Of a stretch of 64,000 bases of DNA, positions 43,222 through 64,000 are shown piece by piece. The translations under genes were made by a program, and so were the position numbers. Under the pieces are notes generated by a model that made no database searches, was not told where the DNA came from, and was given only the letters and a program-made list of their open reading frames with translations. Position 1 is the first letter of the stretch, and every line of letters starts with the position of its first letter. The stretch is from Roseateles puraquae (GTDB lineage: Bacteria; Pseudomonadota; Gammaproteobacteria; Burkholderiales; Burkholderiaceae_C), in contig NZ_NISI01000014.1 of NCBI RefSeq assembly GCF_002205845.1, positions 1-64,000 on the forward strand, given 5' to 3'.

Positions 43222-43631
43222 TGCGGGTCGTGTTGGATACCAACATCCTGTTCAGCGCCCTGATCTCGCCACATGGCGCGCCCGATGCGATCTACCGTGC
43301 CTGGCGGGCGGCGCGTTTCGAGGTGGTGACCTCGCGGATGCAACTCGATGAAATTCGTCGAGCCAGCCGCTATCCCAAGCTTCAGGCCATCCTACAGCCC
43401 GCCAAGGTGGGCGCCATGATCAATAACCTGCAACGGGCTGTGGTACTGGAGCGCCTGACCATCGAGGTCGAAGCCGATGATCCGGATGACTCGTTTTTGC
43501 TGGCCATGGCCTTGGCGGGCGATGCGGACTACCTGGTAACCGGTGATCGCCGCGCCGGCCTGCTGCAACGCGGGCACATCGAACGCACGCGGATCGTCAC
43601 GCCCGCCGTGTTCTGCGTCGAGGTGCTGTGA
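43221..43631 (+). CDS. PIN-domain toxin
   Basis: The 136-residue protein has a PIN nuclease fold with VVLDTNILFSAL at the start and acidic residues in LDEIRRASRY, DDPDDSFLLAMALAGDADYLVTGD. These give the Asp/Glu set for Mg-dependent RNA cleavage, as in VapC-like toxins. It is the second gene of the toxin-antitoxin pair in the transposon and ends three bases before the tnpA ATG. Confidence 0.85.
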   Translation: MRVVLDTNILFSALISPHGAPDAIYRAWRAARFEVVTSRMQLDEIRRASRYPKLQAILQPAKVGAMINNLQRAVVLERLTIEVEADDPDDSFLLAMALAGDADYLVTGDRRAGLLQRGHIERTRIVTPAVFCVEVL

Positions 43632-43634
43632 TCA

Positions 43635-44774
43635 ATGCCGGTCGGTTTTCTGACTCAAGAGCAACGCGACGGTTTTGGCCGCTATGTTGATTCGCCCAGC
43701 CGTGAAGAGCTGGAACGTTACTTCCACCTGAGCGATGAAGACCGTGAAGCCATCCAGGTGCTGCGGGGTAACCATAACCGTCTGGGTTATGCCGTTCTGC
43801 TGACCACCGTCCGCTTCGTTGGCGTTCTGCCGGACAAGCCCGCCGCCGTGCCGGTGGAAGTCCTGCAGGTGCTTTGCCGACAACTGGCGATTCCAGACCC
43901 CGACTGCCTCCAGCGCTATAGCGATCATCGCCGCTGGATACATGCCACCGATATTCAGAACCGCTTTGGCTATCGTCATTTCACCGATCCGGGCATCGGC
44001 TTTCGCTTGAGCCGCTGGCTGTATGCCCTCTGCTGGACGGGCACCGACCGGCCGGGAGTGCTGTTTGAGCGAGCCACCTCGTGGCTGTTCACACAGAAAG
44101 TCCTCCTGCCTGGTGTGTCTCAACTAGAGCGCTTTATCGCCCAGTTGCGCAGTCGGGTCGAAGAACGCCTCTGGTTTACGCTGGGCCGCAGCGTGACTGA
44201 GGAACAGCGATTGCAACTGCAAGACTTGCTGACGGTGGCCGAAGGCAACCGCAGCTCCCGGCTGGATCAATTGCGCTCCGGCCCGGTCATGGTCAGTGGC
44301 CCCGCGTTGATTCGGGCACTGCGCCGGCTCGATGACGTGCGCGGCATCGGCATCACCTTGCCGGCGGCGGCGCACATCCCTCCCAGCCGTATCGCCGCCC
44401 TGGCCCGCTTCGCCAACACGGCCAAGGTCACCGCGATTAATCGGCTGCCGGCGTCGCGGCGGATGGCGACACTGGTGGCCTTCGCACTCTGCCTGGAGGC
44501 GACTGCGCACGACGACGCACTGGAAGTCCTGGAGGCCTTGCTGCGCGACCTGTTCAGCAACGCGGAGAAGGCCGACAAGAAAGCCCGCATGCGCAGCCTG
44601 AAAGACCTGGATCGGTCGGCCGCGACGCTCGCCGCCGCGTGCAAGGTCGTGCTGGACAGCTCGATCAGCGATGACAACGTGCGCGCCCGGCTGTTCAACG
44701 ACCTGCCGAGGACCACCCTGGAAAAGGCCCTGGAAGGGGTGATGTTGGTTTCGATGCAGGAACTGGCGGTTTAA
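43635..44774 (+). pseudogene. tnpA: Tn3-family transposase TnpA, N-terminal third only
   Basis: The 379-residue fragment starts PVGFLTQEQRDGFGRYVD and follows the normal N-terminal DNA-binding region of Tn3-family TnpA (usual length close to 1000). It ends abruptly after RTTLEKALE, where GGGG at 44736 begins foreign sequence that adds VMLVSMQELAV and a stop. The catalytic DDE region is missing, so the element cannot transpose by itself. Confidence 0.85.
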
Positions 44775-44782
44775 AGTTAGCG
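44736..44782 (+). repeat. putative terminal repeat of a second Tn3-type element, inserted in tnpA
   Basis: The sequence begins GGGGTGATGTTGG and ends TTTAAAGTTAGCG. The GGGG start and AAGTTAGCG end resemble Tn3-type terminal repeats, and it sits exactly where tnpA is broken. A full-length divergent transposase follows on the opposite strand with its 3' end toward this repeat, the usual geometry. No clear partner repeat was found to the right. Confidence 0.5.
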
Positions 44783-44978
44783 TAAACCCGATGCTCCGGT
44801 GCCGATGTTTTCCGCAGCGCGGCCGAGCCGCAGCCCGGTCTAGGTGCCAGCAACGCCTGCGAGCGGTTTGTCCCAAACCGCCAGTTTTTGCACCGAAAGC
44901 CAGGCGCCTACAAAATCACCGCGCCTGTAAGTGCTTGATCTGTAGGTGCGCTTCTATCCAAGGCGCCAGTTTTTGCAC
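44749..44978. repeat. inverted and direct copies of an AAACCGCCAGTT-type motif
   Basis: A 24-base motif on the minus strand at 44749-44772 recurs on the plus strand at 44875-44898 with three mismatches. A 15-base core, CGCCAGTTTTTGCAC, occurs at 44879 and again at 44964. They lie in the 230-base non-coding gap between the broken tnpA and the second transposase. They may be transposase-binding sites or remains of a second nested end. Confidence 0.55.
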
Positions 44979-45004
44979 GACCAACCATGGCGCCTTCGAG
45001 ATGC

Positions 45005-47956: not shown

Positions 47957-48010
47957 GAAGCACCTCCAAAGAAGATGTAGTTGCGACGTCAGCGTCGCTC
48001 GATCGGATCC

Positions 48011-48970
48011 CTATGACGACGAGGGCGCACTGCGCGCGAGCCCGCTTTCAAACTTGGTCTTCATCCCGTCCAGCGAGATGTCGATGTAGCGCAGCGCGGA
48101 GCTGACGTCGCGCCAGCCAACGTGCTCCATCAGTTCCTTGAGGTCCCAGCCGTTGCTGCTGGCCCAGTTGGCGAAACCACGGCGAAGCGAGTGGCTGGAA
48201 TAACTGGCGGCCTCCTCGGCGCCAGCCGCGTGCAGGATGCGCCGCAGCAGCGGCAGCACAGTCTTGCTCAGCATGTGCTCGTTCGAGACGTTGCCCCAAC
48301 GATCGATGCTAGGGAACACCGGCCCGGTCTTGCGGCCGCTCAGCTCGATCCAGTCGAGGTAGGCGTCCACAGGGCACAGCCGCGACAGCGCCGGGCAATG
48401 GAATGCACGGTCCTCGCCCTCGTCAGTGGTCTTGGTCTTTCGAGGCCGGCAGGTCAGCCCTTTGCCCCGCTGGGCTTGGACCTCCTCGATGCGCATGCTG
48501 GCCAGCTCGTCGGATCGGAATGCGCGCCAAAAGCCCAGCAGGAGCATCGCGCGGTCGCGGCTGCGGCGCAGCTGCTCGGTCTGGCGGCCGTGCTCGCGTG
48601 CCGACGCCTGCGCCTTCAGCAGCCAGTCGGACACCGCTTCGAGCACGTCGAGCTGCAGCGGCCGGGCCCGCTTCTGCGGCACCGCGTGCTTGGCCCGGAC
48701 GCCACGCAGCACCTTCTGCACCAGCGGCGACCGGGTGGGATCGCCGAAGCCGTTGTCGGCATGCCATCGCGCCAGTGCCGCCAGATGCAGACGCAGCGTG
48801 CTGATGCGGTAGACCTCAGCGTGCTCGGCCACGTAGCGCGCCACCGTGTCAGCCGTTGCGGGCAGCAGCCCGCTCCAGACTTGCTCGAAGTTGCGCAGCG
48901 CTGCGGCATAGCTCTTGACCGTGTTGTCCCGGTCGGCCGCTAGGACGTACTGCTCAACGGTGGCGCTCAT
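48011..48970 (-). CDS. tyrosine recombinase (probable cointegrate resolvase)
   Basis: The 319-residue protein has a SAM-like N-terminal core-binding domain and a catalytic domain with Arg (LGFWRAFRSDELASMR), HSLRRGFANWAS, the second His (HVGWRDV) and Tyr (ALRYIDIS). Some Tn3-family elements (Tn4651 type) use a tyrosine recombinase for resolution, so a role with the adjacent tnpA is likely. An integrase role is the alternative. ATG overlaps the stop of the LysR gene by four bases. Confidence 0.85.
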   Translation of the reverse strand: MSATVEQYVLAADRDNTVKSYAAALRNFEQVWSGLLPATADTVARYVAEHAEVYRISTLRLHLAALARWHADNGFGDPTRSPLVQKVLRGVRAKHAVPQKRARPLQLDVLEAVSDWLLKAQASAREHGRQTEQLRRSRDRAMLLLGFWRAFRSDELASMRIEEVQAQRGKGLTCRPRKTKTTDEGEDRAFHCPALSRLCPVDAYLDWIELSGRKTGPVFPSIDRWGNVSNEHMLSKTVLPLLRRILHAAGAEEAASYSSHSLRRGFANWASSNGWDLKELMEHVGWRDVSSALRYIDISLDGMKTKFESGLARSAPSSS

Positions 48971-50109: not shown

Positions 50110-50616
50110 TTGACCTGGGACACCCTTCACCTGCTTGCAGCGCATGACGCCGGACTGGACTCAGTCATGGCGGAGATGCGCCAACTGCGCCGGTACGGCC
50201 TGTCCGAGCGCGAGCGGCTCGCTGGCGCTGCCGGCTGGAACGAGGTGGTTCGCCATGCCCGCGAGATGCGCGGACTGGGCCTCGACGACACGATGCTGGA
50301 AGTGCTGCGCGAGGTGCAGCGCATCAAGGCGGCGGCAGTCTCGCTGCCGCCCCACTTCCTAAACGAGATCAGCGCTGCCCTGGAACAGCAGCGCTGGCTG
50401 GCTGCCTACCGGACCGCCACGCTGGAGTTGTTGAACAACTGCCGGCGCTTCTTGCTGAGCCGACGGTTGCGCCTGCGCAACCTCATCAGCCTGCTGGACA
50501 CGTTCTGCCGATCCGTGAGGTTGAGGCCGCCAAGGCGGGTCCGTGGCATCACGCTGGTCCGCCGGGCCCTCGGCTTTTTCAGCGCCGCGAAGGTCGATGG
50601 GCGGAATCTCCCATGA
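50110..50616 (+). CDS. hypothetical protein, first gene of the Xre/RES operon
   Basis: I do not recognise the family. The product is helical and Arg/Leu-rich. TTG 50110 is the first possible start (168 residues); ATG 50167 is an alternative. The C-terminal part is strongly basic (LLSRRLRLRNLISLLDTF, VRLRPPRRVRG). It stands 37 bases before the antitoxin gene and under a good promoter, so it is probably expressed with the toxin-antitoxin pair. Confidence 0.55.
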   Translation: MTWDTLHLLAAHDAGLDSVMAEMRQLRRYGLSERERLAGAAGWNEVVRHAREMRGLGLDDTMLEVLREVQRIKAAAVSLPPHFLNEISAALEQQRWLAAYRTATLELLNNCRRFLLSRRLRLRNLISLLDTFCRSVRLRPPRRVRGITLVRRALGFFSAAKVDGRNLP

Positions 50617-50653
50617 GGGTTCTCTCAATTGGTGCGCATTGCGCGACTTCACG

Positions 50654-51112
50654 ATGATTTATCCCTCAACCACCTCCGCGCGGCGCCCCGATGAGGCGCC
50701 CGGCGAGCAAGCAACACCCTATGTCTCGGCCTCTGAAACCCAAGCACTGCTGCGCAGCAGTCTGGCCGCGCGCAACGCGCGCCTCGAGGCCTCCGACATG
50801 GTGAACACCGATCAAGCGGCCAAGCTGGCCGGGACTACTCGAGTGACGATCAACGCCTGGATTGCCAAGGGACGCGCCATCGGCGTGCCACGCATGCAGC
50901 GCGGCTTTCGGCTGCCGGCATGGCAGTTCGAGCCGATGCTGTGGGACGTGATCCCCAAGCTGTCCAAGGCGTTGGGCACCCTCGATGGCTGGACCCTGCT
51001 GGCATTTCTGGAGACCCCGCACGGCGGCCTTGGTGGAGTTCCCCCCCGCCAGGCTCTTGAACAGGGCCAAGCAGATCGGGTGTTGGCGTTGGCCAGCGCG
51101 GAGGGTCTCTGA
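50654..51112 (+). CDS. Xre/MbcA-type antitoxin of a RES toxin
   Basis: The 152-residue protein has a central helix-turn-helix (VNTDQAAKLAGTTRVTINAWIAKGRAIGVPR) and a C-terminal MbcA/ParS-like toxin-binding domain (WQFEPMLWDVIPKLSKALGTLDGWTLLAFLETPHGGLGG...LEQGQADRVLALA). This domain pair is typical of the antitoxin that precedes RES toxins. It ends nine bases before the toxin ATG. Confidence 0.82.
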   Translation: MIYPSTTSARRPDEAPGEQATPYVSASETQALLRSSLAARNARLEASDMVNTDQAAKLAGTTRVTINAWIAKGRAIGVPRMQRGFRLPAWQFEPMLWDVIPKLSKALGTLDGWTLLAFLETPHGGLGGVPPRQALEQGQADRVLALASAEGL

Positions 51113-51121
51113 CCCTCCAAG

Positions 51122-51700
51122 ATGAACTTCCAAGACTTTGATGAACTCCCACCGTATCGTCTGACGCCAGACCGACATCTCTTCAGGATCCAGCCGGTGC
51201 GCTCACGTCCCGGCAACCGCGCCGTCGGCCCCCTCCGCGTCTCGCTGCCAGGCGCGCTGAGCGGCCGCTTCTGTCTGCCGGACCAGCGCGTCGCCTACTT
51301 CGCCGACTCGCCAGAGACAGCCGGCTACGAGGCGTTCGGGCGCCGCGAGCAGACACTTCTTTCGCTGGACCGCCTGCGCCGCGGCGAGCTGCTCTGTGCC
51401 GGAGTGGCCGACGGCATAACCTTGCTCGACATGACGCCGCATGCGGCCGATTACCCGGCGCTGCAGTCGACCCGTTTCGGCCCGACCCAGGGCCTGGCCG
51501 CCCGCGCCGCTTCAGCTGGCTACGACGGCATCGCCTACCTGTCGGCGCAGCGCTACGCCGGCATCTGCTACGCGCTCTTCGAGCACGTCCTCCCAGCCAT
51601 TCGCGCCCGCTGGCGCCAGCGCCTGATCGACCCTGAGACTGGCAACCTGCACCGCGTTGTGGCAACTGTTGCTCGGGGCAGCGGTCTGCCACTTGCATGA
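51122..51700 (+). CDS. RES-domain toxin
   Basis: The 192-residue protein has the RES-domain Arg (HLFRIQPVRSRPGNR), VAYFADSPETAGYEAFGRRE, and a late Gly/Ser-rich stretch. RES toxins such as MbcT degrade NAD+ as hydrolases or phosphorylases. The pair with the upstream Xre/MbcA antitoxin forms a complete toxin-antitoxin operon. Converges with the gene at 51717. Confidence 0.85.
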   Translation: MNFQDFDELPPYRLTPDRHLFRIQPVRSRPGNRAVGPLRVSLPGALSGRFCLPDQRVAYFADSPETAGYEAFGRREQTLLSLDRLRRGELLCAGVADGITLLDMTPHAADYPALQSTRFGPTQGLAARAASAGYDGIAYLSAQRYAGICYALFEHVLPAIRARWRQRLIDPETGNLHRVVATVARGSGLPLA

Positions 51701-54484: not shown

Positions 54485-54674
54485 CGTTGCCTCGGTGCCC
54501 ATCCCGAGTACCACTCCAGGCGACATGGACCACGCCGAATCTGCAAAGCATCCCTCTGCCACTACTGATTCAGGCTGCGCGAGACTCAACACATAGATCG
54601 TCTGGTCGATCAGGAGTCAGCACCACTTGTGCCGGCGACTCGCCGTGAAAAGTCCTGCTGGACATGCGGCATGG

Positions 54675-54705
54675 AAAAAACGAGGCCCCGGGCGAAGCCG
54701 GGGCC
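54675..54705 (-). terminator. intrinsic terminator of the ECF sigma/anti-sigma operon
   Basis: On the minus strand GGCCCCGG, a six-base loop and CCGGGGCC form a perfect eight-base-pair stem, followed by TCG and six T residues. It lies about 200 bases after the anti-sigma gene stop. Confidence 0.8.
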
Positions 54706-54903
54706 GTAAAGCTTCGTCGGTGTCATCACGCCGGAGCTCCTGCTCAGGGAGGTTTAGCAGGGAGGCCAGCAGCGCTGGCCTCTGCGATACTTTAGCAGGC
54801 CGGGCCAATATGAATCCGACCACCCTGCGCCCATGAGAAGCACCATCCGTACGCGGTGGCTGTGCGTGGTTCGAGCTCCGTCGCCTGGAGGAAAGTTTGG
54901 GTC

Positions 54904-55122
54904 CTATATCGGACCGCGCTCGCCCTTTGACGGATCGTCCGTCACGGCGCGCCCCTCTGCGTAGGTTTGCATGGCCTGACGAATGACGCGCAAGTGCCGA
55001 CGATAGTTTGTGCAACCGGAGCACATCATCAGATGAGCGCCCAGGCCAAGTCGCTGCCCGAATGAAATCGGCTCTTCCATTTCCAGGGAGCAGATTTCGG
55101 TCACCTCCTTGCAGCTCAGCAT
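54904..55122 (-). CDS. zinc-binding anti-sigma factor (ZAS type)
   Basis: The 72-residue protein (ATG 55122) has MLSCKEVTEICSLEME and the motif HLMMCSGC, the H-x3-C-x2-C signature of zinc-containing anti-sigma domains. No membrane segment follows, so it is a short soluble form. Its start overlaps the end of the sigma gene by seven bases. It should hold the sigma factor inactive until a redox or metal signal alters the Zn site. Confidence 0.78.
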   Translation of the reverse strand: MLSCKEVTEICSLEMEEPISFGQRLGLGAHLMMCSGCTNYRRHLRVIRQAMQTYAEGRAVTDDPSKGERGPI

Positions 55123-55748
55123 GCGGTCTCCCCGGGACGGCCCCAGCCCATTTCCATACAACCTCGCAATTTGTGCCTAGCTCGATGCAGGATGACGTGC
55201 AGATTGGTTGACGTGATGCTCAACTGCGCGCAGATCTCCTCGGTGTCAAACCCGAGAAACTCGCGCATCATGAAGACGCGTCCTGTGTTGGGCGGCAGGT
55301 GATCAAGGCAGGCTTCGAACACCCGCCAGAACTGCTTGGACTCCATCGACTCCTCCGGCGCCGGCCAGGTCTTCGGCCTGGCTGACTCGCGCCATGCCCC
55401 CTTCTCGCTGAAGAGCGCGTCCTGCCGCTCGATCCAGCTGTCATCTTCCTCAAGCAAGCTTGAGATTGGCACAGTGCGGCCCGCCTGGCGGACATGGTCA
55501 ATGATGCGATTGCGCAGGATCGCAAACACCCAAGTCTTGAGGGTTGAACGTCCTGCAAAGGTGGATGACTGCTTGAGGGCGGCTTCAATGGATTCCTGCA
55601 CCAGGTCCTCCGCCGTCTCGGCGTTACGAACCTGAAGCCTGGCGAACTTCAGCATGTCCGCTCTGAGCGCAATTAACGCTTCTGCACTGATCGCCTGGAC
55701 GGCGGCATCAGGCGTGTCATTGCGGAGAGGATCCGTGGCACGGCTCAT
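55116..55748 (-). CDS. ECF-family RNA polymerase sigma factor
   Basis: The 210-residue protein has sigma region 2 (about 28-95; ARLQVRNAETAEDLVQESIEAALKQ, LKTWVFAILRNRIIDHVR) and region 4 (about 140-200; CLDHLPPNTGRVFMMREFLGFDTEEICAQLSITSTNLHVILHRARHKLR). It follows an nrtS-like gene by three bases and overlaps the anti-sigma gene. Target promoters are unknown; the divergent arsS cluster is the obvious candidate. Confidence 0.9.
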   Translation of the reverse strand: MSRATDPLRNDTPDAAVQAISAEALIALRADMLKFARLQVRNAETAEDLVQESIEAALKQSSTFAGRSTLKTWVFAILRNRIIDHVRQAGRTVPISSLLEEDDSWIERQDALFSEKGAWRESARPKTWPAPEESMESKQFWRVFEACLDHLPPNTGRVFMMREFLGFDTEEICAQLSITSTNLHVILHRARHKLRGCMEMGWGRPGETAC

Positions 55749-55751
55749 TGA

Positions 55752-55982
55752 TCAATCACCTCGTTCCCTTGCGGCCTCGTTGCGCGCCGCGCTGTAAGCA
55801 GAGACGCAGAACGGCACCAGGTAGTTCAACACCAGATGCCACGGATCGACGGCCTGTCCGGCCATGATCCGCCCACCATTGTTGATGACGTTCAGCACCG
55901 TCCCAACCACCAGCGCTACCTTCAGCGCCGGCCGGGCGATGCGTCCGCTGACCATCAGCTTGAGTACCGCCCGCAGGTTCAT
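55752..55982 (-). CDS. NrtS-like small membrane protein
   Basis: The 76-residue protein has two hydrophobic helices (ALKVALVVGTVLNVINNGG and HLVLNYLVPFCVSAYSAA), the layout and core residues of the NrtS family linked to nitrate/nitrite transport in some bacteria. Here it sits in an ECF sigma operon beside an arsenic-type cluster, so another small-molecule role is possible. Confidence 0.6.
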   Translation of the reverse strand: MNLRAVLKLMVSGRIARPALKVALVVGTVLNVINNGGRIMAGQAVDPWHLVLNYLVPFCVSAYSAARNEAARERGD

Positions 55983-56016
55983 GGTGGCCGTTTCCGCGCT
56001 CGGGCAAGGCGCAACT

Positions 56017-56478
56017 TCATGAGAACAGCATGCGGATCGCCGAGATCGCAGCCTCTTGCATTGCACCCTGCTGCAAGTCCTCCTTGCGCAGGATCAGGAA
56101 CGTCGAAGCTCGGTCCTGAGGCCGGGCGAGTCGAAAACCTGCAGGTCCAACTGCCCTGGCTTCGGGCTGCAAATCCCTGACGGCTCGCATCACCACCGCT
56201 TCCATGGTGGCGAGGTCCGCCATGCCTGCAAAAACCACGGGAAGGCTGGCGTTCGACTCGCGGATCTTGCGGAAGACTGTGGCGGCGTCGGCCCCCAAAG
56301 AAGACGTGACTGCAGTCGAAATGATGGCACCTTGAGCCGGCGTTCGGATCTCTTGGTCGAGCTGGTGCAGGCCGTCGATCCGCACGGGTGCGAAGCCGGC
56401 CGTGACCAGGAAGGGACGCATTTCATTGACGATGAATGCGTGCGGGCGGGCGAGAAGTACGCGTCGCAGGGGTGTCAT
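56017..56478 (-). CDS. receiver-like protein without clear phosphoacceptor
   Basis: The 153-residue protein (ATG 56478) begins RRVLLARPHAFIVNEMRPFLVTAGFAPVRIDGLHQLDQEI, a response-regulator-like fold start. The acidic pair and phosphoacceptor Asp are not where expected; the fourth strand reads GAIISTAV. It is the first gene of the group nrtS-like/sigma/anti-sigma, 34 bases before the nrtS-like gene. It may be a pseudo-receiver. Function unknown. Confidence 0.5.
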   Translation of the reverse strand: MTPLRRVLLARPHAFIVNEMRPFLVTAGFAPVRIDGLHQLDQEIRTPAQGAIISTAVTSSLGADAATVFRKIRESNASLPVVFAGMADLATMEAVVMRAVRDLQPEARAVGPAGFRLARPQDRASTFLILRKEDLQQGAMQEAAISAIRMLFS

Positions 56479-56576
56479 GGCTCGGCTTCGATTCGGTTCG
56501 GTTCTGGGCGCTTGTCTCATGGCGAAATGCCACGACCGGCGTCCTACCTGCCTGTTGACGGATCGAACTCCTTTTC

Positions 56577-56595
56577 CTTACAGACGCTCTGTAAG
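56577..56595. promoter_or_regulatory. palindrome in the sigma operon-arsS divergent gap
   Basis: CTTACAGA, CGC, TCTGTAAG form a perfect eight-base inverted repeat about 50 bases before arsS. A TTGACG box lies at 56555-56560, so the palindrome would cover a -10 region. It fits a repressor or activator site for the arsS-like operon. Confidence 0.55.
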
Positions 56596-56645
56596 AAACA
56601 GGCTCCGCCGTCGTCCAAGCGTCATCGCCCACCGAAAGCTCACGC

Positions 56646-57614
56646 ATGCACGCCACTCTGCCGCTGCTGGCCAAGACCGATTTCCCTCCGCTGGCCCGCC
56701 AGGTGATCAGTACCTTGCAGGTCAACCTGGGATATCGGTGCAATCAGTCCTGCGTTCACTGCCACGTGGGTGCTGGCCCGAACCGGACGGAAGAGATGTC
56801 GCGTGAAACCGTCGACGCGGTAATCGACTTCATGGATGCCAATGCATCCATCCAAAGCCTGGACTTGACTGGCGGTGCGCCGGAGCTCAACCCACACTTC
56901 CGTCAATTGGTCATTGCCGCTCGTGCACGAGGCCTGAAGGTGATCGATCGCTGCAACCTGACGATTCTTGAAGAACCGGGGCATGAGGATCTCACGGAAT
57001 TCCTGGCCGCACATCATGTGGAGGTCGTCGCTTCCTTGCCGTGCTACCTCGAGGACAACGTGGACCGGCAGCGGGGCAAGGGGGTCTTCGACGCCAGCAT
57101 GCGAGCGTTGAAGCGCCTGAACGACCTAGGGTATGGCGCGCCGGGCAGCGGCCTCGTGCTCAACCTCGTCTACAACCCGCAGGGCCCCGTACTCCCCCCC
57201 GCCCAGGGACCACTTGAGCGCGACTACAAGCGGCACCTGGATGAAAAGTTCGGGGCGCGCTTCAACAGCCTGTTCACCCTGGCCAACATGCCCATTCAGC
57301 GATTCGGCTCGATGCTGGTTTCCAAGGGCCAGTTCAACACCTACATGACCCTGTTGCGGGAGGCCCATCGTGCGGCCAATCTCGAACAGGTGATGTGCCG
57401 CAGCCTGCTCAGCGTGGATTGGCAGGGCTACCTCTACGACTGCGACTTCAATCAGCAGCTCGGGCTCGGGCTCCAGAGCTCGGGCGGCCGTCGTGCGCAC
57501 ATCACGGAAATCACCGCAGCGGCACTAGAAGCCTCGCCGGTCCGCGTCGCCGACCACTGCTTCGGCTGCACAGCCGGGCAAGGTTCCAGCTGCGGCGGCG
57601 CCCTCGATCAATAA
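56646..57614 (+). CDS. arsS: radical SAM protein of the arsenosugar ArsS family
   Basis: The 322-residue protein has the radical SAM motif CNQSCVHC (CxxxCxxC), LDLTGGAPELNPHF, and a Cys-rich C-terminal domain ending DHCFGCTAGQGSSCGGALDQ, where some relatives carry selenocysteine. ArsS-type enzymes act with ArsM to attach the adenosyl-derived sugar part to dimethylated arsenic. It is the first gene of an eight-gene cluster including an ArsM-type gene. Specific product not proved by sequence. Confidence 0.85.
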   Translation: MHATLPLLAKTDFPPLARQVISTLQVNLGYRCNQSCVHCHVGAGPNRTEEMSRETVDAVIDFMDANASIQSLDLTGGAPELNPHFRQLVIAARARGLKVIDRCNLTILEEPGHEDLTEFLAAHHVEVVASLPCYLEDNVDRQRGKGVFDASMRALKRLNDLGYGAPGSGLVLNLVYNPQGPVLPPAQGPLERDYKRHLDEKFGARFNSLFTLANMPIQRFGSMLVSKGQFNTYMTLLREAHRAANLEQVMCRSLLSVDWQGYLYDCDFNQQLGLGLQSSGGRRAHITEITAAALEASPVRVADHCFGCTAGQGSSCGGALDQ

Positions 57615-57634
57615 ACACCCTTGAGGAGAATCTG

Positions 57635-58510
57635 ATGTCCCGCAGGCATTTCTTGCTTCAATCGGCTGCGCTCTTGGCCGGTGCGCTGCCAGCGCCCGCC
57701 ATCATGGCCCAGTCCCGCAAGCTTCGATTTGGCGTGGGGCCCTTCATGCCCACGGCAGAAGACACCCGCAAGGCGTTTTTGCCTCTGTTTGCGCACATTG
57801 CGAAGAGCCTTGGCGCCCCGGACTTCGATCTTGCTGTGAGCACCGACTGGGCGGGGCTCGCGGTTGCGATGGGCTCGGGCCAGCTCGACGCGGCCTGGAT
57901 GGGCCCGTGGGGCTACGTCATCGCCAACAACGCGACCGACTGCCAGGCCATCGCGACGGTCAAGTACGACGACAAGCCCACTTACCAAGCCATCATCGTC
58001 GGTCGCCCCGACATCAGTGTGGCCCGCTTTCCGGACGACACGCGCGGCCGATCGATCTCGTTCGCCGACGTGGGTTCCACCTCGGGTTGGCTGATTCCCA
58101 CCTTCTATGCGTCGAAGGTGTGGAAGATCGATCCCAAAGCGTTCTGGAAGTACAGCGAAGGCGCCTCGCATCCGGCCAACGAGGTGGCTGTCGCTTCTGG
58201 ACAGGTCGACCTCGCCACGGACTACGACCGCAACAGAAACGCCATGATTGCGGCCGGGCGGATCAAGCCCGACGCCACGAAGATCGTCTGGACCTCGGAC
58301 CCTCTGCCCAACGATGCCTTCGCCGTTCCGAAGCAGGCGCCCCGGGAGTTCACGCAGCAGTTGCAGTCCATCTTGCTGGCTTTGAGCGGTGACGCGGCCA
58401 AGGCCCTCATGCCCCCCCGCTACACCGGCTTCGTTGCCGCCACCCACGCCAGCTACAAGATGATCGAGGACGCGGGCCTCGCCATTGGCCGGATCAAGGC
58501 TCGTGGCTGA
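57635..58510 (+). CDS. PhnD-like ABC transporter substrate-binding protein
   Basis: The 291-residue protein (ATG 57635, after TTGAGGAGAA) has a Tat-like or Sec signal (SRRHFLLQSAALLAGALPAPAIMAQ) and a type-II binding-protein fold of the PhnD group (LRFGVGPFMPTAEDTRKAFLPLFAHIAKSLG, AWMGPWGYVIAN, VGSTSGWLIPTFY). PhnD relatives bind phosphonates, phosphite or other oxyanions; some have been annotated as selenate binders. Together with the permease and ATPase below it makes one transporter. Substrate here is probably an arsenic or phosphorus oxyanion or organic form, by context. Confidence 0.82.
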   Translation: MSRRHFLLQSAALLAGALPAPAIMAQSRKLRFGVGPFMPTAEDTRKAFLPLFAHIAKSLGAPDFDLAVSTDWAGLAVAMGSGQLDAAWMGPWGYVIANNATDCQAIATVKYDDKPTYQAIIVGRPDISVARFPDDTRGRSISFADVGSTSGWLIPTFYASKVWKIDPKAFWKYSEGASHPANEVAVASGQVDLATDYDRNRNAMIAAGRIKPDATKIVWTSDPLPNDAFAVPKQAPREFTQQLQSILLALSGDAAKALMPPRYTGFVAATHASYKMIEDAGLAIGRIKARG

Positions 58511-58523
58511 TTCCGCGCCGATC

Positions 58524-59513
58524 ATGGGCGGATACCTCGCCGCCGCTCAGGCTTTCTACGATGCGGCCGCCGAGACACCTGCACTGGGCGCGTGCTGCGT
58601 GCAGCGCAATGACCTGGAGCTGCCAGGCTTGGTGGTGCCGTCAGCGATGGAGGCTTTGACCTTCAGCTGTGGGACAACCGTCCATCCCGGCGAGTTGGCC
58701 GATGCCCCGACGGCGCTGTACATCGGCGTCGGCGGTGGGCTGGAAGCCCTTCAATTCGCGTGGTTCTCTCGCCGGCCTGCAAGCGTGATTGCCGTGGAGC
58801 CCGCGCCGCGCATGCGGCAGGCGGCGGAGGCAAACCTCATTCAGGCGGCAAGCCTCAATCCTTGGTTCGACCCAGCCTTCGTACGTGTCATGGCGGGCGA
58901 CGCCTTCGCGCTGCCAGTTCCCGACGAGAGCGTGGACCTGGTGGCGCAGAACTGCCTGTTCAACATCTTTGAGCCCGCCGACCTGCGCCGTGCACTGGCC
59001 GAGGCAGCCCGAGTGCTGCGTCCGGGTGGGCGGTTGATGATGAGCGATCCCATCGCCGAACGTGACATGCCCAAGCACTTGCGGGCTGACGACCGCTTGC
59101 GCGCCATGTGCATGGCTGGCGCGTTGCGATTCGAGGACTATGTGGCTGAAATCGCCGCGGCGGGATTCGGTGTCATCGAGGTTCGGTCACGAAAGCCCTA
59201 TCGCTCGTTGGAGCGCGTCGCTTTCGGACTGGACGCGGACCTCGCGCTCGACGCACTCGACACGGTCTCTCGCAAGACCGGACCGTATGGATCTGTCTGC
59301 GAGGCGGAGATCTTCACTGGGCGCCGCGCGGTCTACGTTGGACCGAACGACCGTATCGAGAGCGGCGGCGTTGAATTGCCCAGGCACCTGCCGATTGCTG
59401 TCAGTGATCGCACGGCTCTGCGACTGCAGACACGCCCGGAGAAGGATGTATTGATCACCCCGCCCACCTGGCGTCATGCGCCGGTGCGCACGGAAGTGGA
59501 GACGCTTGCATGA
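58524..59513 (+). CDS. arsM: arsenite S-adenosylmethionine methyltransferase, arsenosugar type
   Basis: The 329-residue protein (ATG 58524; a GTG at 58503 overlapping the previous stop is possible) has the SAM-binding LYIGVGGGLEAL, ALPVPDESVDLVAQNCLFNIF and LRPGGRLMMSDP. Cys24/25, Cys144 and Cys196 (AMCMAGALRFEDY) lie where ArsM enzymes hold their arsenic-binding cysteines. The C-terminal third (to TRPEKDVLI) matches the long arsenosugar-type ArsM. Next to arsS this supports organoarsenical synthesis. Confidence 0.85.
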   Translation: MGGYLAAAQAFYDAAAETPALGACCVQRNDLELPGLVVPSAMEALTFSCGTTVHPGELADAPTALYIGVGGGLEALQFAWFSRRPASVIAVEPAPRMRQAAEANLIQAASLNPWFDPAFVRVMAGDAFALPVPDESVDLVAQNCLFNIFEPADLRRALAEAARVLRPGGRLMMSDPIAERDMPKHLRADDRLRAMCMAGALRFEDYVAEIAAAGFGVIEVRSRKPYRSLERVAFGLDADLALDALDTVSRKTGPYGSVCEAEIFTGRRAVYVGPNDRIESGGVELPRHLPIAVSDRTALRLQTRPEKDVLITPPTWRHAPVRTEVETLA

Positions 59514-60514
59514 ATTCCCCTGGCCAGTCTTGCCCCATCGAGTACCAGTACGCCGCTGCAGACTTTCGCGGCATGACGGTGGACCGAGTCGATACCGCTT
59601 ACGTGATCGGTGGCCTGTACGGCAACCTCGACGCTTTGCACGCCATCCTGCGCATGCAGCAGGCCGAGGCCCGCCAGGGCAAACACGTGAGTCTCGTCTT
59701 CAACGGCGACCACAACTGGTTCAACGTCGACGCAGCGAGCTTCAAGGAAGTCAATCAGGTAGCGCTTGCGAGCCTGTCGATACGAGGCAACGTCGAGGCC
59801 GAACTCTCACGGCCGACGGACGCAGGTTGTGGCTGCAACTATCCCGACTACTTCAATGCCGACTACGTCGCCCGATCCAACGCGATCATGTCGCGGTTGC
59901 AGGGTACGGCGCGCGAGTTGCCGGTGCTGTGCCGAGGTCTGCAGGATTTGCCATTTTTCCGCGTCCTGGCTGTAGGCGAGACGCGGGTGGGCATTGTTCA
60001 TGGTGACCCAGAGATGCTCGCGGGCTGGTCGTTCGCCGCTGAGCGCTTGAGCCCGATCGGCAAGTGCTGCTCGGGCGATGAGGCGGTTGCAGAACTCACG
60101 CCACCATCGAAGCTGGAACGTTGGTTCCGCGACGCGGATGTCGATGTCTTCGCCAGCTCCCATACCTGCCTTGCGCATGCGCGCGACCTGCAAGTCGACG
60201 GGCGAACCCGAGCGATTTTCAATAACGGCGCCGCAGGCCTGCCCAACTTTGCCAACGAAGGCTTCGGCATCGTGACCCGGATCTCCGCCGACCCGACGAT
60301 CCCACGGGGAAGCTTGTACGGTTTGAACCTAAACGGTGTTCGCTACGACGCGATGCCGGTGCACTACGACGCGGCGAGCTGGGTCAGACACTTTCTTGCC
60401 AACTGGCCGCAGGGTTCACCGGCCTATGAGGCCTATTTCAAGCGCATCGTTGCCGGACCGGATTTTGACCGCCACGACGCAGTCGGCGGGGGCGTGACCC
60501 TGACGGTTCAATGA
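59510..60514 (+). CDS. calcineurin-like metallophosphoesterase in the arsS/arsM cluster
   Basis: The 334-residue protein carries a metallophosphoesterase pattern: YVIGGLYGNLDALHAIL, FNGDHNWFN (Asp/His/Asn ligands), RGNVEAEL, GIVHGDPEM, and ASSHTCLAHA for the late His. Some residues are shifted from the classic GDxxDRG and GHT motifs. ATGA overlaps at both ends couple it to arsM and the permease. It may dephosphorylate a sugar-phosphate or phospho-arsenical intermediate; this is inference. Confidence 0.75.
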   Translation: MNSPGQSCPIEYQYAAADFRGMTVDRVDTAYVIGGLYGNLDALHAILRMQQAEARQGKHVSLVFNGDHNWFNVDAASFKEVNQVALASLSIRGNVEAELSRPTDAGCGCNYPDYFNADYVARSNAIMSRLQGTARELPVLCRGLQDLPFFRVLAVGETRVGIVHGDPEMLAGWSFAAERLSPIGKCCSGDEAVAELTPPSKLERWFRDADVDVFASSHTCLAHARDLQVDGRTRAIFNNGAAGLPNFANEGFGIVTRISADPTIPRGSLYGLNLNGVRYDAMPVHYDAASWVRHFLANWPQGSPAYEAYFKRIVAGPDFDRHDAVGGGVTLTVQ

Positions 60515-61338
60515 TGCAAGAGCCCAGTTCCGCCGTCTTGCGGGCCTTGGAGGCGCGCGCTCGGGAAAGCGTTGGATGGAGCGGCCGACGAGTGCTTCGG
60601 GCTGCCTGCCTGGTCGCACTGCTGGTCCTGCTGGCTGCGAGCGCCCGTCTCGCCCAAGTGGACCTGGGGCGACTCATCGAGGGTCTGCCTAAGTTGGGCC
60701 ACTGGTTGGCTACCGCCTGGCCGCCCAAGCTTGACGAGGTACCGATCTTCCTTTGGCGTACGGCCGAAACGGTGGCGATGGCAGCCGTAGGCACCGCCAT
60801 CGCCACGCTGCTCGCAGTCCCAATGGCGCTGCTGGCCAGCCGCAACCTCACGCCCTGGCCCAGGCTGTACCTGCCTGCTCGCTGGCTGCTCAACGGACTG
60901 CGAGGAATCGACTCCTTCGTCTTCGCACTGCTCTTTGTCGCCGCTGTCGGGCTGGGGCCGTTCGCAGGTGTCTTGGGCATCGCGCTGCATACCTGGGGCA
61001 GCGCCGGCAAGTTCATGGCAGACACCATCGAGAGCGCGCCTCTCGGACCCATGCAGGCCGTCGAAACCACCGGGGCCGGGCGCCTGATCGCAGCGCGATA
61101 TGCCCTTGTCCCTGAGGTGCTGCCCGCGATCCTGTCCAGCACGCTGTATTTGTTCGAGTTCAATGTGCGCGCATCCACCGTGCTGGGTGTCGTGGGCGCC
61201 GGCGGCATCGGCCAGGAACTGAAGAACAGCATGGATCTGCTGGACTTCGCGCGACTGGCCACCATCATCGCCATCGTCTTGCTGGTTGTGACCGCGATTG
61301 ACCAAGTGGCAGCTTGGCTGCGTCGGAGGCTCGTGTGA
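60511..61338 (+). CDS. PhnE-like ABC transporter permease
   Basis: The 275-residue membrane protein has about six helices, including VLRAACLVALLVLLAASARL at the N-terminus, and the binding-protein-dependent permease motif in GPMQAVETTGAGRLIAARYALVPEVLPAIL (EAA loop). RASTVLGVVGAGGIGQELKNSMDLLDF is the PhnE/PtxC-type conserved block. Overlaps its neighbours (ATGA and GTGA). Confidence 0.88.
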   Translation: MMQEPSSAVLRALEARARESVGWSGRRVLRAACLVALLVLLAASARLAQVDLGRLIEGLPKLGHWLATAWPPKLDEVPIFLWRTAETVAMAAVGTAIATLLAVPMALLASRNLTPWPRLYLPARWLLNGLRGIDSFVFALLFVAAVGLGPFAGVLGIALHTWGSAGKFMADTIESAPLGPMQAVETTGAGRLIAARYALVPEVLPAILSSTLYLFEFNVRASTVLGVVGAGGIGQELKNSMDLLDFARLATIIAIVLLVVTAIDQVAAWLRRRLV

Positions 61339-62132
61339 TCGGGGCGGCTGGCGTGACACTGGCCGTGCATGGCCTCACCAAGCGGATGGGTGGTCGCCAG
61401 GTGATCGACGACCTGAGCCTTTCCGTTCATCCGGGCGAATGCATCGCCTTGCTCGGGCCAAGTGGTGCGGGCAAGACCACGTTGATTCGATGCATGTCAG
61501 GGCAGTTGCCGCCCGACAGCGGTCACGTTCTGCTGGATGGCCAGGATGTGTTGTCAATGCGCCGGTCGACCCGTCGCCGCATCGCGGTGGTGTTTCAGCA
61601 GTTCAACCTCGTCGGTCGGCTTGACGCAACGGACAACGTTCTGGCTGGACGCCTGGGTCACATGTCCGCGTGGCGGGCGATGCTGCGCCGCTTCGATTCC
61701 AATGACCAGTTGCTGGCTCTGCAGTGCCTGGAGCGGGTGGGCATGCTTGAGCACGCCTCTCAGCGCGCGGATACCTTGTCCGGCGGGCAGCAGCAGCGAG
61801 TCGCGATCGCGCGAGCTCTCGCGCAACGGCCGAAGGTGATCTTGGCTGACGAGCCCATTGCCAGCCTGGATCCGGTCAACGGCGAGGCGATCCTCGATCT
61901 GCTGCGCGACATCGCGCGCACCGAGGGTGTTGCGGTCGTGTGCAGCCTGCATCAGCTTGAATTTGCGCGCGAATGGGCCGACCGGATCGTGGGGATGGCG
62001 CCCGATGGAGCCGTCGTTAATCTGCCCGCCAGGAGCTTTGATGCCCGGGCCAGGGACGACATCTACGGGCGGGTTTGGGGCAGCAAGGAAGAAGCCGGGC
62101 TGTCCCGCCTGCTGCGGGACCTGTACGTGTGA
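61335..62132 (+). CDS. PhnC-like ABC transporter ATPase
   Basis: The 265-residue protein starts at GTG 61335, which overlaps the permease stop. It has Walker A LLGPSGAGKTTLIR, the Q-loop VVFQQFNLV, the signature LSGGQQQR and Walker B VILADEPIASLD, and belongs to the PhnC group. With the PhnD-like and PhnE-like proteins it completes an importer inside the arsS/arsM cluster. Confidence 0.9.
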   Translation: MIGAAGVTLAVHGLTKRMGGRQVIDDLSLSVHPGECIALLGPSGAGKTTLIRCMSGQLPPDSGHVLLDGQDVLSMRRSTRRRIAVVFQQFNLVGRLDATDNVLAGRLGHMSAWRAMLRRFDSNDQLLALQCLERVGMLEHASQRADTLSGGQQQRVAIARALAQRPKVILADEPIASLDPVNGEAILDLLRDIARTEGVAVVCSLHQLEFAREWADRIVGMAPDGAVVNLPARSFDARARDDIYGRVWGSKEEAGLSRLLRDLYV

Positions 62133-62148
62133 GCCTCAGGAGCACTGG

Positions 62149-62868
62149 ATGCCGATTCGCGCTTTGACTTTCGATACTGGCGGCACCGTCCTCGATTGGC
62201 ATGGCGGGCTCGTCCGAAGGCTGAACGCCGTCTGTGGAGATCGCCTCGCGGGCATGGAGCCGCACGTCCTCGTCAATGACTGGCGCAAGCGAGCGATGAA
62301 GGCCATCGTGGGGCAACTACAGCCCGCGTTCAACATGGACGACGTGCACCGCGAAACGCTGGGGGCAACGCTGCAGGCGTTTGGGCTCGTCGACCTGAGC
62401 GCATCGGAGCGGGAGGCCCTCTGGCGCGGTTGGTACGAACTTGACGCCTGGCCTGACTTCCCTGCAGCCTTGCAGGCGCTTGGCCGGGCCTTGCCGGTCG
62501 TCTCCTTCACCATGTTGCCGACGGCACTCGTCATGGGCGTCTCGCGGCGCAATGCTTTGGCTTGGGATGCCATCATCTCTTGCGAAATGATCGGCGTATA
62601 CAAGCCGCACGCCGAGGCCTACGCCACAGCCGCTCGCTGGCTTGGCTTGGCGCCGCAAGACATCCTGATGGTGGCCTGCCACAACTTCGATCTCAACGCG
62701 GCCCAGGCAGCTGGATTCAAAACTGCCTTTGTTCGCCGCCCCGATGAATGGGGCCCACAGGGACCGCAGGATCCGCACCCGAATCGTCCGTATGACTTGG
62801 TGGTGGACGGCTTCGAAGAACTCAGGCGACAAGTTCTGAATGGGCCAGGAGCGTTCCCCGGACCGTGA
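62149..62868 (+). CDS. HAD-superfamily hydrolase, haloacid dehalogenase type II-like
   Basis: The 239-residue protein has FDTGGTVLDWHGGL (nucleophile Asp but no second Asp of phosphatase-type HADs), SFTMLPTALV, the motif III Lys in VYKPHAEAY, and HNFDLNAAQAAGFKTAFVRRPDEWG. This pattern is that of type II 2-haloacid dehalogenases rather than phosphatases. It stands 16 bases after the ATPase gene. Its substrate in an arsenosugar-type pathway is unknown. Confidence 0.8.
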   Translation: MPIRALTFDTGGTVLDWHGGLVRRLNAVCGDRLAGMEPHVLVNDWRKRAMKAIVGQLQPAFNMDDVHRETLGATLQAFGLVDLSASEREALWRGWYELDAWPDFPAALQALGRALPVVSFTMLPTALVMGVSRRNALAWDAIISCEMIGVYKPHAEAYATAARWLGLAPQDILMVACHNFDLNAAQAAGFKTAFVRRPDEWGPQGPQDPHPNRPYDLVVDGFEELRRQVLNGPGAFPGP

Positions 62869-63029
62869 TTGACGACAAGGTTTCCCGATGCCGACCTTTC
62901 CGATCGTCATCGCGCGGAAAGTGGCTGTGAGATCCGGCATGAGAGCTCATCAGGCATCCCGTGCAAGTCAAGTTGCTCAGCACCGAGTCAAGTCGGACCT
63001 GAGCACACCAATTTTTCAGGAGACAACGA

Positions 63030-63605
63030 GTGGCCTTCCTTTCCACCTTGCCTGACGATGCCGGCGTACGACACATCCTCGCCCTGAACCCGGCCGCCGG
63101 TCGCGCGCTGATCGAGTTCCACAGCGCTGCGCTTCGTTCCGACTCGCAGCTTGACGCCAAGGACAAGGAGCTCATCGCCGCCTTTGTGTCCGGACTGAAT
63201 GCATGCCAGTACTGCTACGGCGTCCACAAGGAGACGGCCAAGGCCTTCGGCGTTCCGGAGAGCGTCATCGAGGCCTTGCTTGCCGATGTCAACAGCGCGC
63301 CCGTCGATGAGCGCCTGAAGCCCCTGCTTTCCTACGCCAGGGTGCTCACCTTGACGCCGACCCGGGCGCAGCAAAGTCACGCCGATGCGATCCTTGCCGC
63401 CGGCTGGACCGAGCGCGACTTGCACGATGCCATCCTCACGGTCTGCCTCTTCAACTTCATGAACCGCTTGCTTGAAGGTCATGGGGTCAAGGGATCGGCC
63501 GAGCTGTACCAGGCCAGGGGGCAGGCGCTACACGCCGTGGGCTATGCGCCGCTGCTCGACATGCTGTCGACGTCCGAGGCCAAGCCGATCAGCTTGAAAC
63601 CCTAA
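63030..63605 (+). CDS. AhpD/carboxymuconolactone-decarboxylase-like peroxidase of the arsenosugar cluster
   Basis: The 191-residue protein (GTG 63030 after CAGGAGACA) has the AhpD-like core with the redox motif CQYCYGVH (CxxC then His), AKDKELIAAFVSGLN before it and DLHDAILTVCLFNFMNRL after it. Members of this subgroup are commonly found beside arsM/arsS and are described as arsenosugar-associated peroxidase-like proteins. A gap of 161 bases without another gene separates it from the HAD gene, so it could have its own promoter. Confidence 0.82.
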   Translation: MAFLSTLPDDAGVRHILALNPAAGRALIEFHSAALRSDSQLDAKDKELIAAFVSGLNACQYCYGVHKETAKAFGVPESVIEALLADVNSAPVDERLKPLLSYARVLTLTPTRAQQSHADAILAAGWTERDLHDAILTVCLFNFMNRLLEGHGVKGSAELYQARGQALHAVGYAPLLDMLSTSEAKPISLKP

Positions 63606-63644
63606 TGCCCGAATGCGTCTCTTTGCGTGTGACGTGGAGCGGTC

Positions 63645-64000
63645 TCAAAGGGGCTTGAGCTGCTGCAGCAGGGTCGGCACGAGTTCGGTCACCGTCGGAT
63701 GGATGTGAACCGTACGCGCGATTACTGTGTAGGGTTGCCGCGCTGCCATCACATCGAGCAAGGAGTGCACGACTTCGTCGCCGTTTAGGCCAAGGATCGC
63801 GGCCCCCAGGATTTGTTGGCTGTCGGCGTCGACGAGCACCTTCATGAAGCCCTGTGATTCGCCGGCCTCGCGCGCCCGCCCAACACGCTGCATCGGCATC
63901 TTTGCGCGCAGCAGGCGCTTGCCGCTGGCGACCGCATCGGCTTCGGACAGGCCGACGCGGCCGAGCGCCGGGTCGATGAATAGCGCGTAGCAGGGAATGC
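63645..64000 (-). CDS. FAD-dependent pyridine nucleotide-disulfide oxidoreductase, C-terminus (runs off the window)
   Basis: The visible 118 residues are the dimerisation domain of a mercuric-reductase/dihydrolipoamide-dehydrogenase-like flavoprotein: ALFIDPALGRVGLSEADAVASG, GFMKVLVDADSQQILGAAILGLNGDEVVHSLLDVM and VHIHPTVTELVPTLLQQL. The HIHPTVTE stretch supplies the active-site base (His-x-His-Pro-Thr-x-x-Glu). The rest lies beyond the right edge. Convergent with the peroxidase-like gene. Confidence 0.88.
   Translation of the reverse strand, partial: IPCYALFIDPALGRVGLSEADAVASGKRLLRAKMPMQRVGRAREAGESQGFMKVLVDADSQQILGAAILGLNGDEVVHSLLDVMAARQPYTVIARTVHIHPTVTELVPTLLQQLKPL

Follow-up and report, generated by a model that had tools for sequence, protein, structure and literature searches.

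Gene organization of the locus

The stretch of DNA analysed here (the window) comprises the first 64000 positions of contig C3 of Roseateles puraquae (genome G000, 6.06 Mb in 43 contigs), a member of the order Burkholderiales. At 56646-63605 it carries a string of eight plus-strand open reading frames coding, in this order, for the radical SAM enzyme ArsS, a substrate-binding protein, the methyltransferase ArsM, a calcineurin-fold protein that we label MPE, a PhnE-type permease and a PhnC-type ATPase of the ATP-binding cassette (ABC) class, a haloacid dehalogenase (HAD) hydrolase and an AhpD-like protein (Table 1). The initial annotation of this DNA had described arsS and arsM as interleaved with all three parts of a transporter, and profile searches bear this out, with each of these products scoring over the cut-off of its family. 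The CNQSCVHC cluster motif is visible in the ArsS sequence, and ArsM clears the model for the arsenosugar-type enzyme, though barely (400.7 vs 400 bits). The genes are tightly packed from arsS through the HAD gene: arsS is followed after 20 nt by the binding-protein gene, which overlaps arsM by 8 nt if the GTG at 58503 is the start of the latter and lies 13 nt from it if the ATG at 58524 is used; arsM and the MPE gene, and likewise the MPE gene and phnE, share an ATGA, phnE and phnC share a GTGA, and a gap of 16 nt separates phnC from the HAD gene. The run of overlapping junctions reported earlier is thus confirmed, its first member depending on the GTG start. Given the 161-nt gap after the HAD gene, the AhpD-like gene is perhaps outside the operon. 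A simple scan detected no terminator-like site on the plus strand within 54500-63700.

About 20-25 kb to the right of this string the same contig carries a second block (G000:C3:83131-88794; L224 3131-8794), which codes for an MTAP-type phosphorylase, a TVP38-FAD oxidoreductase, a TIGR04283 glycosyltransferase (at C3:86380; 256.1 bits, cut-off 182), a TIGR04282 glycosyltransferase (at C3:87089; 195.2 bits, cut-off 134) and an oxidoreductase resembling the N-terminus of SelD. Both glycosyltransferase families are already named as arsenosugar glycosyltransferases in NCBIfam. Since the MTAP, TVP38-FAD, TIGR04283 and TIGR04282 genes all lie at 83-89 kb, the arsenosugar gene set is present on the contig, split in two around a selenoneine cluster. 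We therefore have little doubt that this is an arsenosugar-type cluster, as first proposed, and the fuller route that had been envisaged finds its counterpart in this second block: ArsM, the MTAP-like phosphorylase and the two glycosyltransferases, together with ArsS, constitute a plausible route to an arsenosugar.

Table 1. Genes of the arsS string and its flanks, with positions in the window and the supporting matches
Feature	Position	Strand	Evidence
arsS, radical SAM enzyme of arsenosugar biosynthesis	56646-57614	+	TIGR04167 456.6 bits (cut-off 300); PF12345, PF04055
Binding protein, HtxB/PtxB/PhnD superfamily	57635-58510	+	PF12974 159.9 bits (cut-off 27); TIGR01098 134.9 bits (cut-off 112.05)
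arsM, arsenite methyltransferase	58503 (GTG) or 58524 (ATG) to 59513	+	NF038099 400.7 bits (cut-off 400)
Calcineurin-fold protein (MPE), altered metal motifs	59510-60514	+	No named family; fold by AlphaFold/Foldseek
PhnE-type ABC permease	60511-61338	+	TIGR01097 259.5 bits (cut-off 216.7)
PhnC-type ABC ATPase	61335-62132	+	TIGR02315 273.2 bits (cut-off 266.1)
HAD hydrolase, haloacid dehalogenase type II, DTGGT[VI]LDWH subgroup	62149-62868	+	TIGR01428 128.9 bits (cut-off 125.4)
AhpD-like protein	63030-63605	+	TIGR01926 85.4 bits (cut-off 81.8)
ECF sigma factor, divergent, upstream of arsS	55116-55748	-	TIGR02943 240.4 bits (cut-off 162.2)
Small zf-HC2-like protein, partner of the sigma factor	54904-55161	-	36% match to annotated zf-HC2 gene of L035
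FAD oxidoreductase gene, 3' part (rest to the right of the window)	63645-64000	-	NF004992 730 bits (cut-off 629), L223 3645-5021

Association of the importer and MPE with ArsS

In a sample of 300 genomes from 135 genera of the order, MPE was found in 48 genomes and ArsS in 93, with both present in 47 (Fisher P 1.4e-27 by genomes and 1.4e-17 by genera, values which both overstate independence on account of the kinship among the genomes). ArsS is encoded in all 27 genera that have MPE, as against 43 of the 135 genera overall. The 48 MPE genomes include one with a short piece interrupted by a stop (G010) and two with partial matches (G212, G241); in 34 of the 48 the MPE gene lies no more than 10 kb from arsS. 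The binding protein was recovered from 26 of the 300 genomes at E 1e-30 and from 24 at E below 1e-50; among the latter, 23 possess ArsS and 22 possess MPE. The two genomes left out by the stricter threshold (G226 and G251, E ~2e-31 to 4e-31, 30% identity) are divided, ArsS being present in G251 and not in G226. This pattern supports a functional link of both MPE and the importer to ArsS within the order, and we consider it highly probable that the two are functionally tied to arsenic.

A phylum-wide sample of 349 genomes gave another distribution: ArsS was detected in 116 (in 114 of them over the cut-off), MPE at E 1e-10 in five, and the binding protein at E 1e-30 in the genome under study only. 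Besides this genome, a single MPE genome of that sample has ArsS (G580, with the genes ~1.4 kb apart). When the two ArsS genomes from the order itself are set aside, 113 of 114 ArsS genomes have no MPE. The module of importer and MPE is hence mainly a trait of this order; in other lineages ArsS is usually encoded without it. The expectation that homologs of the importer and the presumed hydrolase would neighbor arsS in other genomes accordingly held within the order (ArsS in 23 of 24 binding-protein genomes and in 47 of 48 MPE genomes) and failed beyond it.

To characterize the neighborhoods we used a set of 115 MPE loci from which redundancy at 97% identity had been removed; the locus of the window is included, and the set was picked by similarity of MPE to that of the window and is thus a biased sample. 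Counting labelled gene types on the same strand within 6.5 kb, we found arsS in 68 loci, TVP38-FAD in 57, TIGR04283 in 44, DUF547 in 41 and TIGR04282 in 39. Transporters of three non-homologous kinds recur: an SSS-type symporter in 27 loci, PhnE-, PhnD- and PhnC-type components in 22, 21 and 19 respectively (some PhnC labels may denote other ABC ATPases), and an MFS transporter in eight. Any PhnC/D/E-type component is present in 26 loci, some of which have the ATPase only; it coincides with an SSS symporter in two loci only, and at least one of the three transporters is present in 59. PhnCDE, SSS and MFS transporters are all of kinds that usually import their substrates. The placement of arsM inside the transporter operon, which the initial annotation had noted, is real here and was otherwise seen only at L143 among the loci examined; this is contig RXJW01000112.1 of a metagenome-assembled genome (Burkholderiales bacterium AWTP1-25), whose genes match those of the window at 99-100%, and it represents the same genome or a near-identical one.

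Among the matches listed, 35 of 80 MPE loci have no confident arsS nearby, and in 25 of these 35 genomes ArsS is encoded elsewhere (in 24 over the cut-off). In two genomes in which no ArsS match was found, MPE lies near other arsenic genes. In Pseudonocardia (L172) an arsC-type gene directly precedes it (over the cut-off for PF01451, and 71.0 bits against the 157.6 required for TIGR02689), and at L219 it lies ~2 kb from genes for ArsR (96.6 bits, cut-off 55) and ArsI (189 bits, cut-off 116). At L147 a different radical SAM gene, scoring 79.6 bits against the TIGR04167 cut-off of 300, is divergent from the MPE gene. In the one genus of the phylum-wide sample that has MPE and lacks ArsS, L244 and L246 share the order TVP38-FAD, radical SAM, SSS, MPE, with the radical SAM gene (L244 4700-5659, L246 4897-5856) occupying the place of arsS beside the symporter and MPE; the symporters of these loci are 63-66% identical to the ArsS-linked symporter of L207 (Denitromonas ohlonensis), a locus of the type arsS-SSS-MPE. 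The best model for the radical SAM protein of L244 is the Rv1681 family, at 101.6 bits and below the cut-off of 380. The binding protein of the window weakly matches the Rv1680 family model, and the Rv1680-Rv1681 parallel is a lead only.

A hybrid pocket in the binding protein

The nearest solved relative of the binding protein is HtxB (5me4; 253 bits, 114 of 259 positions or 44% identical), with AioX (6esk, E 1.2e-8) and ArrX (6x6b, E 0.0071) as distant relatives. Two other assignments were rejected: the protein is not the PhnD of C-P lyase operons concerned with phosphonate use, as it scores 140.4 bits against 261.1 for the PhnD equivalog TIGR03431 and as no PhnJ, and hence no C-P lyase, was found in its genome; nor does it fit a selenate importer, with 69.5 against 250 bits for the putative selenate binder TIGR04553. 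It has an RR-type signal (MSRRHFLL) and a pocket formed by W72, S148, H179, R199 and D227.

According to the structural work on this superfamily, the replacement of H160, Y55 and S130 of PtxB by F158, W52 and N128 in HtxB favors hypophosphite over phosphite, with D206 and R178 of HtxB forming a pair; a "hybrid" class is also named there, and its passages on that class report no ligand (PMC5700983). The protein of the window matches neither pocket in full. It retains W52, R178 and D206 of HtxB, with N128 and F158 replaced by S148 and H179; of the PtxB pocket residues Y55, S130, H160 and Y208, the first three of which were aligned, it keeps S130 and H160, with Y55 replaced by W72, and it has the HtxB-type R199/D227 pair. 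This mixture of PtxB and HtxB features places it in the hybrid class of Bisson et al. 2017, as judged against the residues described in that paper and not against its hybrid sequences. The W/S/H/R/D pattern is found in 34 of 38 aligned relatives (some of them duplicates, and that of L143 being from the same or a near-identical genome), including eight loci with no MPE in view (L225-L228, L232-L235). The neighbors of the binding protein at L235 include ArsR, ArsI, arsC-type and MIP genes, of which the first two score over their cut-offs and the others below, and those at L233 include ArsR (over the cut-off) and arsC-type and MIP genes (below it). A DsrE-like gene lies upstream at L226. The exceptions to the pattern are one distant stretch and the proteins of L229-L231, in which the last three residues of the pattern are A, T and E; these three loci have no MPE, though their genomes encode one elsewhere. 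At L229 and L230 a LysR-like gene, named from its sequence, lies upstream of this third binding-protein subfamily.

In a FastTree phylogeny the pocket pattern spans two clades, while HtxB and the proteins of L229-L231, joined with a support of 0.77, group with the clade of the window protein (support 0.98). As HtxB and these deviating forms emerge beside a clade with the hybrid pocket, the tree suggests that the latter is older than the HtxB pocket. RR-type signals are a feature of the window clade and, judged by the same signal pattern, are absent from 18 of 21 members of the other clade. From the hybrid pocket residues we expect recognition of three oxygens, which would fit phosphite, arsenite or methylarsonate, a set of anions among which the sequence alone cannot choose.

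A cysteine-rich calcineurin-fold family

Neither Pfam nor NCBIfam gave a match to the product of 59510-60514 at E 0.01, and a profile of its family found none among PDB sequences at E up to 1. Its AlphaFold model (pLDDT 94.5, pTM 0.93) was matched by Foldseek to the Ap4A hydrolase SapH (3qfm; E 8.5e-11, TM-score 0.52 by query length), followed by 1nnw, 2gju and 3rqz with TM-scores near 0.5 by query length, so that the calcineurin-like fold of the metallophosphoesterase first annotated here is upheld. The chemistry that such a name implies is not. Classical metallophosphoesterases bind two metals through the motifs D-x-H, GD, GNH[DE], H and GHxH. In an alignment of 120 MPE sequences C8, G35, Y37, D67, N94, C107, C109, H164, D166 and H218 are invariant, and V95 and E96 are found in 118, with V or I in place of the His of GNH[DE]; position 220 is Cys in 118 sequences and Gly in the remaining two, which are the Pseudonocardia proteins. 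The two-metal motifs are accordingly altered to G35 and Y37, D67, N94-V95, H164 and H218-x-C220, which, on the motif scheme usual for this fold, means that one metal site has lost both its D-x-H ligands and its final His, with the D, N, H and H of the other kept. With canonical metal ligands replaced and cysteines invariant, the "phosphoesterase" label is doubtful: MPE is probably not a classical two-metal enzyme, and we infer that it may instead combine a one-metal site with an adjacent thiolate site.

At least 509 stretches in genome contigs were confirmed to code for MPE, and the family is a likely component of arsenic metabolism. Burkholderia accounts for 47 of 48 plasmid records that carry it; on the Burkholderia glumae plasmid bglu_2p (L035 10982-12996) arsS is followed by the calcineurin-fold gene, and on B. 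glumae plasmids the protein is annotated as "hypothetical protein".

The HAD and AhpD-like proteins

The HAD protein is predicted to belong to the haloacid dehalogenase type II family (TIGR01428, 128.9 vs 125.4 bits). In its D-T-G-G-T motif the second Asp found in HAD phosphatases is missing, and a DTGGT[VI]LDWH motif recurs in the HAD proteins of nine further loci with arsS or MPE, a tenth (L061) being without it. A HAD gene is present on the same strand in six of the 115 MPE loci (that of the window included) and on the opposite strand in three more. This enzyme does recur, but as a general partner it was rejected, being a minority neighbor. The AhpD-like protein was likewise rejected as a member of the module, since one set of loci gave a single 28% match and the other only the copy of the genome under study; its place in the cluster, as first proposed, is not supported, and it probably stands outside the conserved module.

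Genomic setting

The gene string lies in a metalloid island. The GC content is 67-75% across most of 4-42 kb and 61-67% for 42-64 kb, and the region of the step (41851-48970) codes for a resolvase, a PIN-domain protein, a DUF4158 fragment, a Tn3 transposase and a phage-type integrase. To the right of the window the selenoneine block (G000:C3:63645-71131; L223 3645-11131) codes for the FAD oxidoreductase, two PhnE-type permeases (one of which scores under its cut-off), a PhnC-type ATPase (167.7 bits, under the cut-off of 266.1), SenA (514 bits, cut-off 420), SenB (411.8 bits, cut-off 300) and SelD; no binding protein was found among the genes scanned there. MerA is also encoded on this side, and a CzcA-type RND pump beyond the second arsenosugar block.

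Upstream of arsS, the small protein beside the extracytoplasmic function (ECF) sigma factor has no Pfam match of its own, and the zf-HC2 gene to which it was compared likewise stands beside a sigma factor gene on the B. glumae plasmid. Related sigma factor genes occur near arsS elsewhere, e.g. at L035, L098, L118 and L214. A 104-aa open reading frame (55752-56066) with no Pfam match adjoins the sigma factor gene, and its relatives are found beside sigma genes at L062, L089, L098, L100 and L214. Further to the left, 50543-51700 codes for a RES-domain protein and a small upstream protein without a Pfam match, arranged like a toxin-antitoxin pair of the RES type.

Functional interpretation

Radical SAM enzymes of the ArsS type are reported to adenosylate arsenic during the synthesis of oxo-arsenosugars (PMC12159101). 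We propose that the hybrid pocket would accommodate a small oxyanion that presents three oxygens and an apolar position, either arsenite or a methylated arsenical (phosphite being the natural rival), which would then be brought into the cell. ArsM would methylate the arsenic, ArsS would add the deoxyadenosyl group, the MTAP-like phosphorylase would remove the adenine and the glycosyltransferases would complete the product. The cysteine-rich MPE may act on, or hand over, the arriving arsenical, with the HAD protein as an optional tailoring enzyme. Handling of the imported compound by MPE would best explain the occurrence of this one cysteine-rich protein beside three unrelated kinds of importer, and its position by ars genes in Pseudonocardia would tie that compound to arsenic. 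For the reading as a whole, in which an organoarsenical cluster of the arsenosugar type has its own module for uptake and handling, we see even chances; that the imported substrate is itself an arsenical falls somewhat short of this. As a still more tentative generalization, bacteria of this order might import an arsenical on purpose, by the hybrid-pocket ABC transporter or by SSS or MFS transporters, and pass it to the thiolate-rich MPE as the first step to an organoarsenical. The initial interpretation is thereby sustained in part, namely for the type of cluster and the linkage of ArsS, MPE and importer in the order, and is not supported for the phosphoesterase chemistry and the AhpD-like protein.

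Several observations weigh against an arsenical as the substrate and against so close a tie of the module to ArsS. The residue pattern of the pocket suits phosphite as well as arsenite, and HtxB, the nearest characterized relative, binds hypophosphite (PMC5700983). Some binding-protein operons of the window clade (L225 and L226) lie near transport genes (tungstate-like and molybdate-like respectively, as named from sequence) and not arsenic genes. In the arsenite sensor AioX a conserved Cys binds arsenite. Cys 103, a possible counterpart of that Cys, is found in 14 of 39 binding-protein sequences, and with this frequency a conserved AioX-like bond between Cys and arsenic is not supported. None of the three transporters is present within 6.5 kb in 56 of the 115 MPE loci, some of which are cut by contig ends. 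No ArsS match was found in 10 of the 35 genomes whose MPE has no adjacent arsS, nor in G242 (listed completeness 100%, contamination 6%), which has both MPE, on a 6.2-kb contig, and the binding protein. In the phylum-wide sample 114 of 116 ArsS genomes have no MPE and 115 no binding protein, and three of the five MPE genomes, all of one genus, have no ArsS.

The main rival holds that the importer carries an anion of phosphorus, whether phosphite, hypophosphite or an analogue of phosphate, easing the competition between arsenate and phosphate or feeding phosphorolysis. We consider this less likely, although HtxB is the closest solved relative, the His and Ser that serve the O3 of phosphite are kept in the pocket, and phn1 operons in arsenite-oxidase islands have been discussed with phosphorus uptake (PMC3834237): the genome has no C-P lyase, a scan that covered the cluster genes and not the rest of the genome showed no gene for phosphite or hypophosphite oxidation, the association with ArsS (in 23 of 24 genomes) exceeds what one would expect of a general role concerned with phosphorus, and MPE also stands beside SSS and MFS transporters. 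It is doubtful, too, that MPE, by means of a one-metal or altered site, acts as a phosphatase or phosphodiesterase and dephosphorylates the sugar-phosphate released by the MTAP-like phosphorylase. Such a role would accord with the SapH-like fold, which is shared with other metallophosphoesterases, the universal retention of D67, N94, H164 and H218 and the MTAP-like gene on the contig, but the D-x-H ligands are G35 and Y37 in every sequence, the last His is C220 (or Gly in two), three further cysteines are invariant, and in Pseudonocardia the family accompanies ars genes in the absence of ArsS. The Tn3 transposase, resolvase and integrase on the left, the selenoneine, mercury and RND efflux genes on the right and the lower GC content than in most of 4-42 kb might point to a mobile island in which metal-resistance genes came together by chance, importer and MPE sharing no role with ArsS; this is very improbable in view of the presence of ArsS in 27 of 27 MPE genera of the order and the recurrence of the gene order in many loci. 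Equally remote is a binding protein devoted mainly to sensing arsenic in the manner of its distant relatives AioX and ArrX rather than to uptake, as the permease and ATPase genes belong to the same overlapping string and no histidine kinase was found among the window genes scanned with Pfam and NCBIfam.

Bacterial uptake of arsenic is generally seen as accidental, proceeding via phosphate transporters and aquaglyceroporins. A dedicated importer tied to organoarsenical synthesis, as in the uptake-and-handling module that we favor, would change that view: arsenic would be a nutrient-like building block, a situation mirrored by the selenoneine block with its own PhnC/PhnE-type genes. The analysis also gives the hybrid binding proteins of the reduced-phosphorus type a genomic context and points to an unnamed calcineurin-fold family.

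Relationship to known systems

No report on the MPE family, or on this importer together with ArsS, was found in the open-licence literature. With the known arsenosugar clusters of ArsM and ArsS the locus shares families that score over their cut-offs (TIGR04167, NF038099, TIGR04282 and TIGR04283), both glycosyltransferases being on the contig; it differs in having the importer and MPE inside the arsS string and in a gene set divided into two blocks around the selenoneine cluster. The HtxB/PtxB importers and their hybrid class (PMC5700983) are alike in the 44% identity to HtxB and the retention of W52, R178 and D206, whereas S148 and H179 here correspond to PtxB and not to N128 and F158 of HtxB, and the genomic link to ArsS has no parallel in the main text of that paper, from which the string "arsen" is absent. 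Six phn1 operons were reported among 21 arsenite-oxidase islands, with a role described as unclear (Li et al. 2013, PMC3834237). They resemble the present locus, by description and not by sequence, in placing a PhnCDE-type transporter in an arsenic island; unlike it, they belong to aioBA islands, and the string "arss" does not occur in that article. MPE is like SapH and the asymmetric Ap4A hydrolase type in its fold and in D67, N94, H164 and H218, and unlike them in its altered D-x-H, GNH[DE] and GHxH motifs and invariant Cys 8, 107 and 109. Finally, the selenoneine system SenABC, the neighboring block on the contig, is likewise found beside PhnC/PhnE-type transporter genes, but it makes a selenium compound, and its transporter genes are separate from those of the arsS string, with no binding protein among the genes scanned.

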